From positions 1 to 23,325 of the IMG/VR virus record IMGVR_UViG_3300021185_001690: DNA of 23,325 nt, one strand, 5' to 3'. The DNA comes from a virus. Within the stretch, counting starts at the first letter, position 1. The number at the start of each line of letters is the position of its first letter. Both the position numbers and the translations under genes were made by a program. Positions 2,299 through 11,362 of the stretch are shown piece by piece. A model generated the notes under the pieces. The model was not told the DNA's origin and made no database searches. It saw nothing but the letters and a program-made list of their open reading frames with translations.

Positions 2299-5200
2299 GT
2301 AACCAGACTAAAGTACCAGGAATACCAAAGCCTCCTGCAGAAGTATCCCCAGAACTTCGCAGCTGGATAACGTCTGTTGCGGAAGCACTTGAGATTAGGT
2401 TAGGTCGCCGTGGCGATCCAAGAGACCGTGCTGTTACTTTACGAGAGTTAATTGAATCGGGACTTGCAGAAGACTTGAAGGCCTCTCGGTTTGACCCAAA
2501 CAATGTTAACTCTAGCAATTTGGGGATGGGGCCAGTAGAGACAATAGACTCAAATAAGCCTCCCCCTCCTACGGGTTTTGCTGCTGCTGGAGCTTACTCA
2601 CAAGTCAACCTGAGCTGGGACTACCCAAACTACGGCAACCATTCTTACGCTGAAATTTATGGGCATGATTCAGATGCGATAGGTGATGCGCAGATAATAG
2701 GAGCATCTACGGGTCGCGGCTACATAGACCCTATTGGCTCAGGTGCGACGCGCCATTATTGGATTAGGTTTGTTTCACAGTCGAATGTCGTGGGACCGTT
2801 TAACTCTAGTACTAGCACGGTCGCTACAACAGCTGCCGATGTAGACCACTTACTTGGTGTGTTAACAGACGCAATTACTACAGATGAGCTAACAGGTACC
2901 CTTGAGACAGAGATCGGAAAGATTTCTGGTGATATTAGTGTTGCAAACTCTGTCACCGCTCGCATTGCTGCTGAAGCAACTTCGCGAGCCGCAGCGGTTA
3001 GTAGTGAGGCTACTGCTAGGGCGGCTGCAGTTAGCAGTGAGGCTTCTGCTAGGGGGGCAGCCATAACTACCGCCCGCGACGCGCTTCAAGCGCAGATAAA
3101 CGACATCGCAGGTATAGCTGCGTGGGCATCTACTGAGTCTTACAGTATTGATGATAAGGTGCGTCATAGTGACAAATTGTGGAAAGCGGCAGCAGCGAAC
3201 AGTGACTCTGAGCCTACTCACAATAATGGTTCTAGTACCAACTCTGACTGGACGCTTATTGGTGACTATACAAGTTTAGGAGCTAACACAGCAGCGAACA
3301 GTGCAGCGATTTTAGCGATCAACACTGTTGATTCGACCAGTACGTCCGCTGCTGCTCTTGCGATTAAAGCGTTGCAGACAACCGTTAACGATAGTGAAAC
3401 AGGTTTGGAAGCAACAGCGGACTCTTTAGACACGCTGTCTAACCGTGTTAACCATACTGATACGGGTTTGGTAGCAACAGCGAGCAAGCTTACTGGTCTT
3501 GAAACTGCGGTCTTCAACGACATGACGGGTGTGCCTAATTGGGCTAAGGCAGACTCTAGCGCAACTCCAGCAATACCTTCGGTTACATACGGTATAGGTG
3601 CTAGGGTTGTCTATGATAAAAAACTTTACCGCGCCGTTGCAGACCAATTAACGAATGTAGAGGGAGCAGCAAATTATTTTGTTCCGGGGACTAACGCTAC
3701 TAAATGGGCGCTTGATACGGTTGCTGCGGCTTCTGCAGTTACTTTGCTGTCCAACACACTTACGAGTGACTACGCCACTGCATCTGATACTTCGCTCATA
3801 GAAGCCGCCATGCTTAACAGTCTGACGGGTGTACCTGATTGGGCTAAGGCAGACTCTAGCGTATCTCCAGCAATACCTTCGGTTACATACACTATAGGTG
3901 CTAGAGTTATTTACGAAAAAAGACTTTACCGCGCCGTTGTAAACCAATTAACGAACGTAGAGGGCGCAGCAAATTATTTTGTCCCAGGGACTGACGCTAC
4001 TAAATGGGCCACTGACAGTATAACTACAGCATCGGTTTTAGCTGCATCAGAAGCAAGCGCTGACGGCAAGTTCGCGACTGCTACTAAGCTGGATAATCTT
4101 GAATCAGCGGCATTTAGCAATTACACAGGTTTGTCTGAATACAACTCAAACGCGGCGTATCTAGTTGGTGCGCGTGTAACGTATGGCACTGGGGCTGGAA
4201 AAAAGATTTATATAGCAATAGAACCTTCAGGAGGTTCAGTAAGCCCGCAGATACCCACGGTCGCTGCATACTGGGACGAAGACACTTTAGCAAGTCAGGC
4301 AGTATCGTCTGGCGCTGCTGCTCAAGCGTTATCGTCAGCAAATACTTACACAGATACTAATGCTGCTTCAGCAAGTGAGTTCTCAGCCTTGAACGCAGGC
4401 GTGTTTGTAGATATTGCAGGCGTAAATGCTTGGGTAAATACTAAACCCGACTATGATATCGGTGACAGGGTATACCACAACCAAAGAATTTATAAAGCTC
4501 AAAAAGTAACTGGAGATTTTGTGTCAGGCTTATCGACTTGGGCTTCTGGCAACGATTATGAAGTAGATGACATCGTCAAATATACGGATAGCGGTTTAGC
4601 GGTGGACGAGCGTCCTTACAAATGTCTTGTCGATAATACTAACAATACTCCTCACAACAACTTATCTGGGGAAAACCCTAAGTGGGCGATTAACCATCCT
4701 GAGCCTGGGACCAACGCTGCCTATTGGATAATAGACGCCGCTTCACTAGCATCAGCGGTAAGTGCTTTAACAACTGATGTGACGAACAACTATGCAAGAG
4801 CGACGGATGTTACAGCTTTAGACGCATCTATTTTTGGTGGTGTTAACGGAGCGCCTGCTTGGTCGAATCAACAAAGTTATGCCGTGGGTGCCAGAGTTAC
4901 TCATGACGATATTCTGTACAAAGCTATTCAGGCATCATCAAACCAAGCACCCAAACAACCGCCGAATGTAGATTACTGGGCTATCGCTCGATTTGCTACT
5001 GGATCAGCGCTTACTGAGCTGTCAGTTGAGGTGAATGACAAAGCAACAACAGGCAGCTTAACTACGCTTGAGTCCTCAATTTTCAACAACGTCATCGGCG
5101 CTCCCAACTGGGCTACTGGAACCACTTACTCTGCTGGTGCTACTGTCACTTACAACCAGAAGATTTATAGAGCTTTGCAAAGCACAGCTTTTGGCGGTGG

Positions 5201-7199
5201 TGGCGGAGAGCCTACCGAGTATGCTCTACCTACGAATACTACGTACTGGGTACAAGACACTTTAACTACGGCTGATCAGGTAGAAGCTGCATACGCAAAA
5301 AGCAGTGACGTTACGGTGTTACAGAGCAACCTGTTCGACAACATGGTAGGTGTGCCCGAGTGGAATAGTAACACTACCTATTCTGCGGGAGCCAGGGTTG
5401 TTCACACAACTTCTAATGGCGTGAAAAAGCTATACAAGTCGAAAGTAGACAATAATAGTGGAAACTCACCAACAAATACGAACGGGTCTGTTAATACCAA
5501 TTGGGAGCTAGACACTCTGGCTAGCGCAACCGCAGTTAATTCGTTAACCACGCTTGTGAACATCGATGAATCAATAACTGACTACGTTGCGGGGCAGTTT
5601 TCAACAAAGGTTGACCTTGGCAACTTGTCCGTTGCTTCAAAGTTCAGTCAATACCAAACAACAACCCAAGCGGCAGAAGCTACGGTGACTGCAACTGACG
5701 CTTTAAGCGTAGCGATATTTGATCAGATAACAGGCGTGGATGGCTGGTCGACTAACGAAACTTATGCCGAAGGTGATAGGGTCTATTCTAGAACAGGCGT
5801 GGCAGCCCCCATAAAAATATACAAGTCGAAAGTAGCCAATAATAATGGAAACACACCAACAAATCAGAACGGGTCTATTAATACCCAGTATTGGGAGCTT
5901 GATGCTCTGGCGTTTGCTGGGGCTTTTGATACGTTAGATGCAACTGTAAATGCTGACGGCTCGGGGCTAGTAGACAAGGTAAGTAATATTGAACTTGACC
6001 TTGGCGATTTGGGCGATACTTCAGTACAAACTCGGTTTGTAGCTACGGGCGATGATATCAATGGCCTTAAATCAAAGTATACAATTAAGATCGATTCTAA
6101 TGGGCATGTGGCGGGTTTTGGGTTAGCTCAAGACGTTAACCCAGCGGGCATCGCTACGAGTAGGTTTTTTGTCAATGCTGATAAGTTTGCAATTCTGCCT
6201 GACGCAGCTACCTCTGCTGACCCAGCTTGGTCTTCAGGCACCTCATACTCAGTAGGAAACAAGGTCACCCGCGAGGGTAAGTTGTATCAGGCAAGAGTAG
6301 CGCATTCTAACCATCAGCCGCCAAACGATACGTACTGGGATGATCTAAGTCGCAGTCCTTTTACGGTTACAGCTACTGGAACTACCGTCGATGGTACTTA
6401 TGTTCCCGCAGGCGTTTACATTAACAACGCAATGATTAAGCACGCTTCTATTACATCTGCACAGATTGGGTCTGTTAATGCCGACATGATCACCACTGGC
6501 AACTTAGATGTTATGGAGCTTATTACAGCTAACCAAATCAAAGCGAGCCTGCTAGCAATTGACGATAACGTCTTATATGAGGCCGCTAATGGAAATTTGA
6601 TACTTCGAACAGGGAGCGCGGATCAAGGGGTTAAACTCGAAAATTTATCTTATGACGCCTTGGGCCTTGTAGCTCAAGCTACTCAGTCATCTGCGTCTGT
6701 AATCTCTAACCAAAGCTATTATCCAAGTTCATTTACTGCCAGCACACCGTGGCGTTCAGCAGTTATAACAACCCAGATACCCTTTGGCGGAGTAACAACT
6801 CAGACCGTTACGCTTCCTCAGTTTCTGGAGTTTACGATACAAGAAGCGACCATAAAAGAACAAGGTCTTTATTACATAGATTTTGGCGCTTCAGCATTTG
6901 GTCAATTAACCAACAATAACTCTACCGCTGCTAGTCAGGTGATTTTAGATATCCAAAGTAAAATAGGTACTGCCGCTTATACGGACTACACATCGCGTGC
7001 TACACCCGCTAAATATTGGGGAACACTCCCGCTTACGCAGCACTCCGCTTCTACTACTGTCACACTATATACAGGCCGCAAGTATCAGTTTCGTCTCTAT
7101 GGCCATCTTAAAGGTTTTGCCAACTCTTCTATTGGTGCTAGTAACCTGGGGTATCAAGGTGGATACATTCGCATATTCAGAATACCTAACCAGACTTAA
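2295..7199 (+). CDS. Giant tail fibre / tip protein with ~11 CBM5/12-like modules and DUF1983-like C-terminal region
   Basis: Protein of 1634 aa, the likely receptor-binding fibre. Order of parts: N-terminal arm to about residue 85; a fibronectin III-like domain (about 90-175, 'PPPPTGFAAAGAYSQVNLSW'); an alanine-rich coiled region with repeated 'ASSEATARAAAV' heptads (about 215-265); then about eleven modules of the pattern W-x4-Y-x2-G-x-R/K-V-x5-K-x-Y-K/R-A ... P ... YW, starting near residues 272, 412, 512, 611, 709, 746, 852, 935, 1020, 1148 and 1308. Most are separated by 30-60 residue predicted coiled-coil linkers. This pattern is that of the small chitin-binding CBM5/12 domains. Residues about 1254-1422 (YTIKIDSNGHVAGFG ... 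FFVNADKFAI ... PFTV ... IKHASITSAQIG) match the tail-tip DUF1983 region of lambda gpJ-type proteins, with the last CBM module inserted in it. The final 200 residues are a beta-rich head. It overlaps the preceding gene by 4 bases. Confidence 0.85.
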   Translation: MSNQTKVPGIPKPPAEVSPELRSWITSVAEALEIRLGRRGDPRDRAVTLRELIESGLAEDLKASRFDPNNVNSSNLGMGPVETIDSNKPPPPTGFAAAGAYSQVNLSWDYPNYGNHSYAEIYGHDSDAIGDAQIIGASTGRGYIDPIGSGATRHYWIRFVSQSNVVGPFNSSTSTVATTAADVDHLLGVLTDAITTDELTGTLETEIGKISGDISVANSVTARIAAEATSRAAAVSSEATARAAAVSSEASARGAAITTARDALQAQINDIAGIAAWASTESYSIDDKVRHSDKLWKAAAANSDSEPTHNNGSSTNSDWTLIGDYTSLGANTAANSAAILAINTVDSTSTSAAALAIKALQTTVNDSETGLEATADSLDTLSNRVNHTDTGLVATASKLTGLETAVFNDMTGVPNWAKADSSATPAIPSVTYGIGARVVYDKKLYRAVADQLTNVEGAANYFVPGTNATKWALDTVAAASAVTLLSNTLTSDYATASDTSLIEAAMLNSLTGVPDWAKADSSVSPAIPSVTYTIGARVIYEKRLYRAVVNQLTNVEGAANYFVPGTDATKWATDSITTASVLAASEASADGKFATATKLDNLESAAFSNYTGLSEYNSNAAYLVGARVTYGTGAGKKIYIAIEPSGGSVSPQIPTVAAYWDEDTLASQAVSSGAAAQALSSANTYTDTNAASASEFSALNAGVFVDIAGVNAWVNTKPDYDIGDRVYHNQRIYKAQKVTGDFVSGLSTWASGNDYEVDDIVKYTDSGLAVDERPYKCLVDNTNNTPHNNLSGENPKWAINHPEPGTNAAYWIIDAASLASAVSALTTDVTNNYARATDVTALDASIFGGVNGAPAWSNQQSYAVGARVTHDDILYKAIQASSNQAPKQPPNVDYWAIARFATGSALTELSVEVNDKATTGSLTTLESSIFNNVIGAPNWATGTTYSAGATVTYNQKIYRALQSTAFGGGGGEPTEYALPTNTTYWVQDTLTTADQVEAAYAKSSDVTVLQSNLFDNMVGVPEWNSNTTYSAGARVVHTTSNGVKKLYKSKVDNNSGNSPTNTNGSVNTNWELDTLASATAVNSLTTLVNIDESITDYVAGQFSTKVDLGNLSVASKFSQYQTTTQAAEATVTATDALSVAIFDQITGVDGWSTNETYAEGDRVYSRTGVAAPIKIYKSKVANNNGNTPTNQNGSINTQYWELDALAFAGAFDTLDATVNADGSGLVDKVSNIELDLGDLGDTSVQTRFVATGDDINGLKSKYTIKIDSNGHVAGFGLAQDVNPAGIATSRFFVNADKFAILPDAATSADPAWSSGTSYSVGNKVTREGKLYQARVAHSNHQPPNDTYWDDLSRSPFTVTATGTTVDGTYVPAGVYINNAMIKHASITSAQIGSVNADMITTGNLDVMELITANQIKASLLAIDDNVLYEAANGNLILRTGSADQGVKLENLSYDALGLVAQATQSSASVISNQSYYPSSFTASTPWRSAVITTQIPFGGVTTQTVTLPQFLEFTIQEATIKEQGLYYIDFGASAFGQLTNNNSTAASQVILDIQSKIGTAAYTDYTSRATPAKYWGTLPLTQHSASTTVTLYTGRKYQFRLYGHLKGFANSSIGASNLGYQGGYIRIFRIPNQT
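3523..4009 (+). repeat. Tandem in-gene duplication, period exactly 300 bp
   Basis: Bases 3523-3709 and 3823-4009 are highly similar over about 187 bp, including runs such as GGGCTAAGGCAGACTCTAGC that are identical. They encode the second and third CBM-like modules of the tail fibre. The period of 300 bases equals 100 codons, so reading frame is kept. A second, weaker pair is seen around 5440-5530 and 5818-5910 (modules eight and nine). This looks like recent duplication of a carbohydrate-binding module. Confidence 0.9.
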
Positions 7200-7630: not shown

Positions 7631-7735
7631 ATGCATAAAGGTAAGCAGTGCGTGCTAAACGCCAAGACAAAATCAAAACCCAAGTCAAAACCCAAAAAGA
7701 AACCAGCTAAGAAGAAGCGAACTTATGGCTACTAG
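7631..7735 (+). CDS. Lysine-rich mini protein, 34 aa
   Basis: Small ORF starting at ATG 7631, two bases after the chaperone stop, with GAGG seven bases upstream. The product starts MHKGKQCVLNAK and then runs through repeated K-S-K-P and K-K-P steps to end KKKRTYGY: 15 of 34 residues are lysine or arginine. Its stop overlaps the start of the next gene by 11 bases. The tight spacing on both sides and the ribosome binding site argue that it is a real gene. A basic, proline-spaced peptide could bind DNA or RNA or sit in the virion, but nothing shows its role. Confidence 0.6.
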   Translation: MHKGKQCVLNAKTKSKPKSKPKKKPAKKKRTYGY

Positions 7736-7958
7736 AAACTACAAGAAAGAGTACGCGTCTTACCACAGCAAAACTGATCAAAAAAAGAATCGGGCGGGGC
7801 GAAACAAAGCGCGGCGCTCTGCTATGGCGGCAGGCAAAGTGAAGAAAGGTGATGGGCAGGATGTTCATCATAAAGACGGTAACCCCCGTAACAATAAAAA
7901 GGGTAACGTGAAGGTGGTAAGCCGGAAAAAGAACCGTGGTGTTTATAGGTTCGCGTAA
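7725..7958 (+). CDS. Small basic HNH-like protein, 77 aa
   Basis: Very basic protein beginning MATRNYKKEYASYH. The C-terminal half DVHHKDGNPRNNKKGN followed by VKVVSRKKNR has the core of the HNH fold: the His-His start, the asparagine-rich middle (NPRNN) and the closing N-R. The family of 'YKKEY..Y....Q.KNR..RNKARR ... KGDG.DV.H' proteins is widespread in marine phages, where it is labelled HNH-like or hypothetical. The third-position His of a full HNH enzyme is not evident, so it may bind DNA without cutting it. It is the last gene of the + strand module before the attachment region. Confidence 0.65.
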   Translation: MATRNYKKEYASYHSKTDQKKNRAGRNKARRSAMAAGKVKKGDGQDVHHKDGNPRNNKKGNVKVVSRKKNRGVYRFA

Positions 7959-7959
7959 C

Positions 7960-7974
7960 TCCGTCAATGACGGA
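7960..7974. repeat. Perfect inverted repeat TCCGTCA-A-TGACGGA (left arm-type site)
   Basis: A 15-base palindrome with a central A, beginning one base after the HNH-like gene stop. Its right half, ATGACGGA (7967-7974), occurs twice more just before the integrase start (8174 and 8185). Copies on both sides of the attachment core suggest integrase or excisionase arm sites. The palindrome could also form a transcript-end hairpin, but no T-run follows. Confidence 0.5.
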
Positions 7975-8103
7975 ATAGAAAGTAAACAAAATTACTATAA
8001 CTAACAAAATCAACGAGTTATGAAGCTCCGAGACTAACATTTAGTTATGCACAAAAGTTCCGTAAGTAATTGATCTAGAACAAATTAACAGCTTTAGACG
8101 TAA

Positions 8104-8124
8104 CGAATCCCTCCCTCTCCGCCA
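8104..8124 (+). other. attP core: copy of the 3' end of a tRNA-Ser gene
   Basis: The 21 bases read C-GAAT-CCCTC-CCTCTCC-GCCA. They match tRNA positions 56-76: T-loop end, T-stem 3' strand, acceptor 3' strand, discriminator G and CCA. The acceptor strand CCTCTCC followed by GCCA is typical of gammaproteobacterial tRNA-Ser. The homology breaks at position 55 (A instead of the invariant T), and no rest of a tRNA precedes it, so this is not a tRNA gene. Lying 73 bases upstream of the integrase, it is the expected identity segment for integration into a tRNA gene. Flanks hold an inverted pair ATAACTAA (7997-8004) / TTAGTTAT (8041-8048), possibly protein sites. The rest of the 7959-8197 gap is AT-rich with no other gene. 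Confidence 0.75.
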
Positions 8125-8173
8125 CATTTTTAAGTGTTTGTTTCTAATATATTTTTTGCTATGTTAGGAATCC

Positions 8174-8192
8174 ATGACGGACACATGACGGA
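8174..8192 (+). repeat. Two direct ATGACGGA repeats, 11 bp apart
   Basis: ATGACGGA occurs at 8174-8181 and 8185-8192, one helical turn apart, ending 5 bases before the integrase start codon. A third copy, as part of a palindrome, lies at 7967-7974 on the other side of the attP core. Spacing and position fit integrase arm sites or an operator controlling integrase. The second copy also supplies the only weak ribosome binding site (CGGAA) of the integrase. Confidence 0.5.
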
Positions 8193-8197
8193 ATACG

Positions 8198-9196
8198 ATG
8201 GCATACATCAGGGAACGCAACGGAAAGTACTTCGCAGAAATACGCCAAAAAGGCTACCCCAACCAAAACAAAACCTTCAAAACTAAGCTCGCAGCTGTTG
8301 CTTGGGCACGCCGCATCGAGAGCAGCATGGACCAAGGATCGTGGGTCGATACCCGTGAAACACAGTCCGTGCTCATTGATCACATTATGGATGATCTCGT
8401 TTACAGCTTTGAGCGGTTCGGGCTAGAAGTCGCTGGTCCTAAATTAGGACAGCTCAACCAAATTAAAGAATACTTTCAAGGTGTGTCGATCCACGACCTG
8501 ACTTTTGATGAAGTGCTGGACTTTGCTGCTTACCGTTTACAAACCGTGGCTGCTAGTACGCTTCAAACTCAGATGTACTATTTTAAGCAAGCGGTCACAA
8601 ATAGCAGAATAAAAACTGAGCAGCTTGTCGTCGACATGGCGATTGAAGAGTTAAAGCTAAAGAAGTTAATTAGGGGTAGCACAAAACGAGATAGGCGATT
8701 GCAAGGTGACGAGTGGGAAAAGTTGCTTGATGAGGCTGGCGCACATTGGATACGCCCGATCATGGAGATTGCAGTTGAAAGCGGCATGCGTCAAGGCGAG
8801 ATTCACAGTCTTGAGTGGCAGCATATCGACTTTGATAAGAACTTAATTGGCATTTGGCGCAAGAATAAAAACGAGCCAGGGGGTAAAAAGTGGCATGTAA
8901 TACCCTTTTGGCAGGGCGTGAGAGAAGTGCTTTTACGTGAACACAACCAGACTGGCAACACTACTACTGTGTTTGGTGTAAAGCATGCAGCGAGCATTAG
9001 TGACAAGTTTGCCAAGATGACAAAGAAGCTGGGCATCGTCGATCTTCGTTTTCATGATTTGCGCCATGAAGCGATATCGCGAATGTTTGAAGTCAGAAAG
9101 ATGCGCGTCGAAGAAGTCAGATTAGTCTCTGGTCATGCTTCGCTTGAGCAGCTATCGCGATATGTAAATTTACGACCTGAGAATTTAGTCGATTAG
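8198..9196 (+). CDS. int: Tyrosine recombinase / phage integrase
   Basis: Protein of 332 aa that would join attP to the bacterial attB site. The N-terminal 50 residues (MAYIRERNGKYFAEIRQKGY) match the arm-binding AP2-like domain of P4/lambda-type integrases; residues about 60-160 are the core-binding helical domain. The catalytic domain shows R198 (SGMRQGE), a beta-hairpin lysine candidate around K222-K231, H286-x2-R289 (HDLRH), H313 (SGHAS) and the nucleophile Y322 (SRYVN), all in the normal order, so it looks intact. It reads away from the attP core and its stop overlaps by 4 bases the stop of the convergent excisionase-like gene. Confidence 0.95.
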   Translation: MAYIRERNGKYFAEIRQKGYPNQNKTFKTKLAAVAWARRIESSMDQGSWVDTRETQSVLIDHIMDDLVYSFERFGLEVAGPKLGQLNQIKEYFQGVSIHDLTFDEVLDFAAYRLQTVAASTLQTQMYYFKQAVTNSRIKTEQLVVDMAIEELKLKKLIRGSTKRDRRLQGDEWEKLLDEAGAHWIRPIMEIAVESGMRQGEIHSLEWQHIDFDKNLIGIWRKNKNEPGGKKWHVIPFWQGVREVLLREHNQTGNTTTVFGVKHAASISDKFAKMTKKLGIVDLRFHDLRHEAISRMFEVRKMRVEEVRLVSGHASLEQLSRYVNLRPENLVD

Positions 9197-9402
9197 GGTG
9201 TACTGACTTGATTGGTCAGAAAAGTTGCGACTTCTTGCGTGGGGAAGAGGTATTTTTTGCCGAGTTTGGCGTGAGGAATCTCTAGACGGCCATGATAAAT
9301 CTGTTGATACATCGATTGGCGTTTGATTTTTAACAGTGAGGACAGCTCGTGTATGTCCATAAATGGTCCATATTTTTTCTCAAGTATTGCGTTTAAATCC
9401 AT
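9193..9402 (-). CDS. Excisionase-like helix-turn-helix protein (AlpA/MerR type)
   Basis: Protein of 69 aa. Residues 14-60 (FMDIHELSSLLKIKRQSMYQQIYHGRLEIPHAKLG then KKYLFPTQEV) form the winged-helix pattern of the helix_turn_helix_17/AlpA excisionase family: a helix starting at D16, a turn, a recognition helix at R28-Y36, then a wing 'GKKYLFP'. Position beside the integrase, on the opposite strand, suggests control of excision or integration. Start is ATG 9402 with AGGAG 11 bases upstream. Its stop and the integrase stop share four bases with no terminator between, so transcripts of the two genes would overlap antisense. Confidence 0.75.
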   Translation of the reverse strand: MDLNAILEKKYGPFMDIHELSSLLKIKRQSMYQQIYHGRLEIPHAKLGKKYLFPTQEVATFLTNQVSTP

Positions 9403-9509: not shown

Positions 9510-10064
9510 TTAGCTGTAGTAGAAAGCCACTACTGACCACATTGTGTGAATTTTAGAAGAGTCGGGCAAATCATTTGGTGCGTAGAATTTTAGATGCTTT
9601 TTACCTTTCAATCTGACGGCGAATGCTCGGGGTTTTTTCATCTGAGAAACTGACACAAGTCTAGCGTAGCAGTCCCAATTCCCGATCGCATTTGCAAAGA
9701 GATATGGGTAGTCGTCTGCGCTCATTTTTACGATTATCGAAGATTCTTCACTTCTGGTTTGCAGCAACTCATTAATCCGTTTGGTCATGTCAGAAGCATT
9801 GTAAGACACTGTCTGCTTGACGATGCTTGGCAGATTCTGTTCGATGTCAGGGTCAATCTCGCGTGGGTCTACGTCAAGAAAATTTGCTAGTTTGATAATT
9901 GCCTGAGCACGTAGCTCGGTGATGTTATTGAGGTAGTGACTGATTGCGCCTTGGCTCCAGCCAAGTTCTTTTGCTACTTCAACTTGCGTGAACCGCATCT
10001 CAACTTTTTTCTTTTCCCATATCCTTCTTAGATTTTTGACGGGCTGAGGGAGGTCTTTGTTCAT
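9510..10064 (-). CDS. CI-like XRE-family transcriptional repressor
   Basis: Protein of 184 aa if started at ATG 10064, chosen for its AGGA ribosome site seven bases upstream; an ATG at 10109 is possible. Residues about 22-60 hold an XRE helix-turn-helix: FTQVEVAKELGWSQGAISHYLN with the usual Q-x3-A-x3-G-x5-I-S-x5-N spacing, followed by IIKLANFLDVDP. This is the DNA-binding half of lambda CI-type repressors. The C-terminal 100 residues contain no recognisable S24 protease Ser-Lys pair, so self-cleavage in the SOS response is doubtful. It is read in the same direction as the replication genes, and its start lies inside the 3' end of the VRR-NUC gene. A promoter-like element at 10135-10154 could serve it alone, letting it be made in lysogens. 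Confidence 0.75.
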   Translation of the reverse strand: MNKDLPQPVKNLRRIWEKKKVEMRFTQVEVAKELGWSQGAISHYLNNITELRAQAIIKLANFLDVDPREIDPDIEQNLPSIVKQTVSYNASDMTKRINELLQTRSEESSIIVKMSADDYPYLFANAIGNWDCYARLVSVSQMKKPRAFAVRLKGKKHLKFYAPNDLPDSSKIHTMWSVVAFYYS

Positions 10065-10458
10065 TAGTTCGTCCTGAATGCGTTGTGCTGTATATCCAAT
10101 TCGCAACATCTTGTCGCGTAATATTTTGTTCTATATAGTGCATTCTACTAATATTTTGAGCGAAGTCACGTTTTAGGATTACAGCAGTGTTTTCTACGCC
10201 AATAACAAGCGCGGCAGTAGCTGGGCCGTTGACACGTTCCAGCCATTGAAGTTGCAATTCGGACAATGAATGACGTATCAGCGTGTCGTCCCGTTTCGGG
10301 AGAGTTTTGACATACTTATACTCAACAAACAGTAGTCCTGCAGGTCCGCAATACATCGCGTCAGGTACGCCTCCCGTATAAGTGTCGTGAATTTTCCACG
10401 CATACACTTCGGGTGGTAAGTAGCGGTGTATACTTCTTACAAAACTATGTTCATTCAT
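10000..10458 (-). CDS. VRR-NUC domain nuclease
   Basis: Protein of 152 aa. It has the compact PD-(D/E)XK core of the VRR-NUC family: GGVPDAM (D33), then LLFVEYKY (E46, K48), then a downstream helix LSELQLQWLERVNG with the conserved glutamine (Q69/Q71). These phage enzymes cut branched or structured DNA during replication and packaging. The last 40 residues are polar and basic (TNEQRPPSARQKSKKDMGKEKS) and overlap the repressor gene by 65 bases in another frame, so the tail may be dispensable. No strong ribosome site is seen before ATG 10458. It is separated from the putative ssDNA-binding gene upstream by the 38-bp repeats. Confidence 0.85.
   Translation of the reverse strand: MNEHSFVRSIHRYLPPEVYAWKIHDTYTGGVPDAMYCGPAGLLFVEYKYVKTLPKRDDTLIRHSLSELQLQWLERVNGPATAALVIGVENTAVILKRDFAQNISRMHYIEQNITRQDVANWIYSTTHSGRTNEQRPPSARQKSKKDMGKEKS
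10135..10154 (-). promoter_or_regulatory. Promoter-like element ATATTAG-N7-CACTAT for the repressor
   Basis: On the - strand ATATTAG is followed after seven bases by CACTATATAG. Four other early sites have ATATTAG-N6-TAYTAW. This copy has one extra spacer base. It lies inside the VRR-NUC gene, about 70 bases before the chosen repressor start. A promoter here would let the repressor be expressed separately from the replication genes. Confidence 0.4.
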
Positions 10459-10464
10459 AAATTA

Positions 10465-10567
10465 GGGTGATGCGTTGTAGCCACAAGTGCATCAGGCTTG
10501 CTTTAAAAGGCTTAATCAGGCCTGTAGCTGGGTGATGCGTTGTAGCCACAAGTGCATCAGGCTTGCT
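10465..10567. repeat. Perfect 38-bp direct repeat, each copy a hairpin, 27-bp spacer
   Basis: Copies at 10465-10502 and 10530-10567 are identical. Inside each, TGATGC pairs with GCATCA and, across small bulges, TTGT pairs with ACAA around a 4-base loop. This 145-base gap between the putative ssDNA-binding gene and VRR-NUC contains little else. Paired identical hairpins suggest a structured RNA, a protein-binding or replication site, or remains of a small insertion. No gene fits in the gap. Confidence 0.9.
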
Positions 10568-10590
10568 AAAACAGGGGCAAGGCGACCCCT
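10567..10590 (-). terminator. Weak intrinsic terminator after the putative ssDNA-binding gene
   Basis: On the - strand, 14 bases after the stop codon, AGGGG and CCCCT form a 5-base GC-rich stem with an 8-base loop, followed by G and four T. The T-run is short and a competing CAAGG/CCTTG pairing exists, so efficiency is uncertain. Confidence 0.35.
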
Positions 10591-11266: not shown

Positions 11267-11292
11267 AATGTTTCCTTTGGTTAATGGTCATA

Positions 11293-11348
11293 GGTTAAGT
11301 GATTAAGTGATTAAGTGATTAAGTGATTAAGTGATTAAGTGATTAAGT
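11293..11348. repeat. Seven tandem copies of an 8-bp unit (GATTAAGT)
   Basis: Six perfect GATTAAGT units (11301-11348) follow one near copy GGTTAAGT (11293-11300), and GGTTAACG follows. The array fills most of the 96-base gap upstream of the putative ssDNA-binding gene, and on its coding strand reads ACTTAATC. It may be an iteron set (replication origin or protein array) or a slippage-prone spacer changing expression of that gene. Confidence 0.95.
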
Positions 11349-11362
11349 GGTTAACGGTTCTA

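Follow-up and report, generated by a model that had tools for sequence, protein, structure and literature searches.

A tRNA-Ser 3′ end as the probable core of a lambda-type phage attachment site, with predicted arm sites that covary with the integrase N terminus

The 23,325 bases of viral DNA analysed here (the window) carry the 3′ end of a tRNA-Ser gene shortly before a tyrosine integrase gene. We consider it very probable that positions 8105–8124 form the core of an attP of the lambda type, present here in the free state (not integrated) and used by an arm-binding integrase (Int) with a tRNA-Ser gene as its target. Across relatives of this phage, the hexamer repeated in the predicted arm sites follows the N-terminal 45 residues of Int, and not the Xis-like protein or the repressor.

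The window and its genes

The window is an IMG/VR record classed as linear and is a fragment. Genes in its left part read rightward and encode a phrog_511 internal virion protein, a 1,634-aa tail fibre protein, a fibre assembly protein and an HNH protein. The right part holds the integrase gene on the plus strand and, on the minus strand, genes for an HTH_17 protein, an HTH_3 repressor, a helicase, an exonuclease, a DUF5906 primase-like protein and a family A DNA polymerase. Among named phages, those with the closest virion proteins (about 30% identity) are about 55–63 kb long, and some relatives of the integrase in IMG/VR lie on contigs of 51–61 kb, so the window probably makes up less than half of a genome. 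The initial annotation, which had called this DNA a genome, therefore said too much for a 23 kb linear fragment. The genes around the attachment site are as follows.

7725–7958, plus strand: small HNH_3 protein, the last rightward gene before attP
8198–9196, plus strand: tyrosine integrase, 332 aa (PF00589, E = 7.5e-20)
8198–8332, plus strand: predicted arm-binding domain, Int residues 1–45 (three strands and a helix in the structural model)
9193–9402, minus strand: small HTH_17 protein, candidate excisionase (RDF)
9510–10109, minus strand: HTH_3 repressor-like protein

The presence of the repressor-like protein indicates a temperate phage. The HTH_17 protein lies directly downstream of int in most loci (51 of the 55 loci of the relative set have a match, the window included), and we infer that it has the role of Xis. 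Repeats were also seen elsewhere in the window. Within the tail fibre gene, segments 3523–4009 and 5426–5885 are repeated (187 nt at 90% and 73 nt at 89%). A 46-nt direct repeat (93%) that itself contains an inverted repeat, at 10465–10575 between leftward genes near the repressor, possibly represents operators, and an iteron-like tandem 8-bp repeat, TTAAGTGA, occupies 11287–11362 between two leftward genes.

The catalytic residues of Int (R198, H286/R289, H313 and Y322) make up the complete R, HxxR, H, Y set and are invariant in 35 sequences. The predicted model of the protein, of moderate overall confidence (mean pLDDT 85.5, pTM 0.55), matches the folds of the lambda and Tn1549 integrases, which are the nearest solved structures (1z1b, E = 7e-11; 6en0, E = 5e-11). 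The window protein fell below threshold for the Pfam arm-binding models, the sole match being a sub-threshold one to Arm-DNA-bind_4 in one distant relative. Together, the catalytic domain, the predicted N-terminal domain and the matching predicted arm sites described below are consistent with an arm-binding integrase of the lambda type.

A tRNA-Ser 3′ end before the integrase gene

The sequence at 8104–8124, CGAATCCCTCCCTCTCCGCCA, occurs once in the window, and no match to it arose in 100 shuffles with up to three mismatches allowed. At least 119 viral stretches contain the same 21-mer. Among the matches listed, 85 of 119 stretches carry a full tRNA ending in it, in every case a tRNA-Ser (ARAGORN), with anticodons GCT (34), TGA (29), CGA (16) and GGA (6); the other 34 have no called tRNA, and 7 of these have an open reading frame matching the integrase profile within 2.5 kb. 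All but one of the 85 listed tRNA-Ser (84) begin with GGAGAGG, which is complementary to CCTCTCC. Immediately before the 21-mer stands one of the heptamers GAGGGTT (52), GGGGGTT (31) or GTGGGTT (2), each made up of a T-stem strand and TT. These starts and heptamers bear out the structural numbering by which the initial annotation had recognized the 21-mer as a tRNA-Ser tail. The match to the tRNA 3′ end runs through the last base, CCA included.

8105–8124, plus strand: attP core, tRNA-Ser 3′ end, positions 57–76 (8104, position 56, also matches and varies in relatives)

An alignment-based scan of viral contigs yielded 61 loci with integrases 23–92% identical. Removal of duplicates, of L225 (a cut-off contig) and of L231 left 53 relatives with integrases 34–92% identical; L231, the most distant match at 23%, showed no such core and does not enter the counts. 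All 53 relatives have a tRNA-Ser 3′ end (up to five mismatches to the 20-bp consensus) 68–93 nt ahead of the int start, in agreement with the earlier proposal that the 21-mer is an attP core beside the integrase gene; the stated distance of 73 nt between the end of the core and the integrase ATG at 8198 is also correct. The proposed extent of the core held for 20 of its 21 bases: the unit common to the family is 20 bp, with identity beginning at position 57, whereas the first base, C at position 56, is A in most relatives.

Since tRNA genes do occur in phages, the 21-mer could be a decayed phage-borne tRNA gene, or a chance match, with no role in integration. We regard this as extremely improbable, because the place of the core before int is fixed across integrases that are 34–92% identical while most of the neighbouring sequence diverges, a whole tRNA is never present, and the shuffles gave no chance match.

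Five relatives (L215–L218 and L220, integrases 37–39% identical) have the core reversed with respect to int, which counts against the attP interpretation. In these five loci the reversed core (TGGCGGAGAGAGAGGGATTC) is followed by TCTCCGC, giving an inverted repeat.

The site appears in its free form

The earlier claim that this DNA is not integrated stood up, in that the window has no ordinary prophage junction: there are phage genes on both sides of a single core copy, and we found no complete tRNA in the window. The same holds for the relatives, in which all 53 loci have a single core copy and none a complete tRNA. With one fragment and never a whole tRNA in 53 of 53 relatives, the site is most simply read as free-form attP, the only form seen in the clade. 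A linear fragment such as this record might also be the inner junction of an integrated or tandem prophage, and in a tandem lysogen that junction would look attP-like too. We consider this very unlikely, given that virion genes lie on the left side and genes for integrase, repressor and replication on the right, that the window lacks a full tRNA, and that four relatives of 51–60 kb, searched end to end, have one core copy each. A fifth large relative, of 61 kb, has a diverged core beyond the reach of the search pattern.

On one 61 kb contig (IMGVR_UViG_3300021335_000017; loci L200 and L222), the integrase and the region upstream of it that contains attP occur near both ends, which suggests an assembly with a long terminal overlap, that is, a closed genome.

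Predicted arm-type and IHF-like sites

The search pattern applied to every locus consisted of four copies of a single hexamer: two in inverted orientation upstream of the core, and two in direct orientation, spaced 11 bp, immediately before int. With at most one mismatch overall, 50 of 54 loci (counting the window) contained this four-site pattern, compared with 0 of 1080 shuffles. IHF-like sites were scored against the consensus WATCAANNNNTTR, with offsets counted from the core. The features in the window are:

7960–7974, half-sites 7960–7966 (minus strand) and 7968–7974 (plus strand): predicted left arm-type sites, palindrome TCCGTCA-A-TGACGGA
8008–8020, plus strand: IHF-like site AATCAACGAGTTA, 0 mismatches, offset −97
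8063–8075, minus strand: IHF-like site TAAGTAATTGATC, 1 mismatch, offset −42
8131–8143, minus strand: IHF-like site TAAGTGTTTGTTT, 1 mismatch, offset +26
8175–8181, plus strand: predicted right arm-type site 1, TGACGGA
8186–8192, plus strand: predicted right arm-type site 2, TGACGGA, 11 bp after site 1 and 5 nt before the int ATG

The centre of the palindrome is 138 bp before the core start in the window and in 41 of 47 loci, and the exact 7-mer TGACGGA has only two further copies, on either strand, in the window. IHF-like matches (at most one mismatch) occurred at −97, −42 and +26 in 95 of 147 chances, compared with 0.23% of other positions; the relatives are not independent samples for this count, yet the sequence between the sites varies widely.

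Arm sequences follow the integrase N terminus

The arm hexamers differ among relatives (GACGGA, GGCACA, GTCACA, GACACC, GGCACC, GACGCA, GACCCA, GGGGCA, AGCGGA, GTACCC and others), and when 10 arm classes are mapped on a tree built from the C-terminal (catalytic-domain) part of 45 integrases, at least 21 changes are required. After correction for the C-terminal part and for the att DNA in between, differences in the left arm correlated with differences in Int residues 1–45 (partial Mantel r = 0.51, p = 0.0002). The right arms behaved similarly (partial Mantel 0.49), and the C-terminal part of Int had no residual correlation with arm sequence. Close pairs show the same pattern. Between L172 and L174, identity is 99% for the C-terminal part and 51% for the N terminus, and their arms are GGCACA and GACACC, respectively; for the window and L002 the figures are 97% (C-terminal part), 64% (N terminus) and 94% (att DNA), with the arms GACGGA and GGCACA. 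In L172 and L174, the 16-bp left palindrome differs within identical flanks, in step with an Int N-terminal domain replaced about 230 bp away.

Palindromes are typical operators, and one repeat pair lies just before the int start codon, so the palindrome and direct repeats might be read by a repressor or an Xis-like protein instead of Int. A weak correlation of the arms with Xis, given the Int N terminus (r = 0.19, p = 0.04), also points that way. However, the arms still tracked the Int N terminus after control for Xis (r = 0.445) or for the repressor (r = 0.443; p = 0.0002 for each), and did not track the repressor (r = −0.03). Furthermore, the Xis stretches of L172 and L174 are nearly identical although their arms differ, and 76 pairs with the same arms have repressors less than 50% identical. 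On the strength of the partial correlations, this locus pair and the 76 pairs, we rejected both proteins as readers of the arms, and we judge it unlikely that the repeats are operators and not integrase arm sites.

Particular residues of the Int N terminus (12, 14, 16 and 24) track particular arm bases. Among 36 distinct combinations of N terminus and hexamer, R16 occurred with A7 (26) and K16 with C7 (8), which covers all 34 combinations having R or K at residue 16. E14 occurred with G5 (7) and Q14 with A5 (17), whereas S24 occurred with T3 (12) and T24 mostly with G3 (8 of 9). Residues 12, 14 and 16 alternate along and just beyond the second predicted strand (10–15), and residue 24 is in the third (23–27); in the model, they are placed as would be expected for one face of a DNA-reading sheet. 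These associations make up a candidate recognition code, statistical in nature and drawn from sequences with shared ancestry.

Why arm recognition switched at least 21 times while the chromosomal target stayed fixed is a question that these data raise, and the avoidance of cross-talk at a shared site is one idea. Tentatively, and with the odds somewhat against it, arm sequence may be under diversifying selection, with the Int N-terminal domain and the four arm sites exchanged as a lock-and-key set among phages that use the same tRNA-Ser site. If so, a co-infecting or superinfecting relative could not excise or mis-integrate a resident prophage, and the phages would form ‘integration incompatibility groups’ comparable to repressor immunity groups.

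Proposed integration reaction and host

In the reaction that we propose, the core-binding and catalytic domains of Int would bind the attP core and its tRNA-Ser counterpart, the N-terminal β-sheet domain would bind the four arm sites (7960–7974, 8175–8181 and 8186–8192), and IHF would introduce bends into the DNA at up to three sites. After strand exchange within the 20-bp identity, the phage would lie beside the tRNA-Ser gene, and the tRNA would be restored because the 5′ part from the host would be rejoined to positions 57–76 supplied by the phage. The integrated int would then lie 73 nt downstream of the tRNA and in the same direction, with the displaced 3′ end at the other end of the prophage. 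The arms beside the start codon may also allow Int to repress its own gene; a promoter and terminator scan from the core to int found nothing, including no sigma-70 consensus, and thus lends no support to such autorepression.

The initial annotation had expected the 21-mer to name the host. This fails, because among the matches listed the 21-mer ends tRNA-Ser of four anticodons (at least 85 tRNAs). Two motif scans of 84,980 genomes, with alignment patterns and with the DNA pattern DLRFHDLRHEAISRMF, returned no related integrase or integrated copy; these scans required exact short motifs and covered one genome per species, so that more distant relatives would be missed and the absence is weak evidence. 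The gammaproteobacterial host that had been suggested is in part in keeping with the named protein relatives, which are mostly from gammaproteobacterial phages, but at 35% identity or less they point to it weakly. CCA encoding in tRNA genes is not restricted to Gammaproteobacteria.

Comparison with known systems

A tRNA 3′ end as attP core beside a tyrosine integrase gene is a long-known arrangement. Lambda shares with the window the three-domain tyrosine integrase fold, arm sites flanking the core and IHF sites, those of the window being predicted. By contrast, lambda attB is not within a tRNA gene, the lambda int promoter layout differs, and the arm arrangement of the window, a palindrome on the left and a direct repeat on the right, is not that of lambda.

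The Pseudomonas phages vB_PaeP_Tr60_Ab31, YA3 and PAJU2 resemble the window in integrase superfamily, in having a tRNA-Ser 3′ part before int and in an int read away from the tRNA. The PAJU2 and Ab31 integrases are 28% identical to that of the window over the whole length, with a longer tRNA-Ser 3′ part upstream of int. The core of the three phages, taken from the anticodon region onward, measures about 64 bp, compared with 20–21 bp, from the T-loop, in the window, and their arm-like repeats (GGGGGAAT) differ in sequence from the window’s arms. YA3 integrates into a serine tRNA gene of PA14 with a 64-bp common sequence, and the tRNA is restored, at a site identical to that of Ab31 (PMC7326022).

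In KplE1 and HK620, intS is directed away from the restored tRNA, and its regulatory region overlaps an att half-site with arms, resulting in negative autoregulation (PMC2951348). The integrase there is a different one, and autoregulation in the window is putative.

The docking site described here is of an ordinary kind, and covariation of arms with the Int N-terminal domain is already known on a small scale in the cluster K mycobacteriophages (CrimD, Anaya and Adephagia), in which arms differ between close relatives together with Int N-terminal residues 17 and 19 (PMC3203893). Strand exchange in cluster K takes place in the T-stem region of a tmRNA, and it was remarked there that related phages with a common core differ in their arms (PMC3203893). 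In the literature searched, subscription journals being outside the search, we found no example of a whole family in which entire domains have switched repeatedly while the target stayed constant. The present family offers a large natural data set for DNA recognition by integrase arm domains: whereas cluster K involves one or two base changes and a tmRNA, this family has at least 10 hexamers, replacement of the whole N-terminal domain and a tRNA-Ser target.
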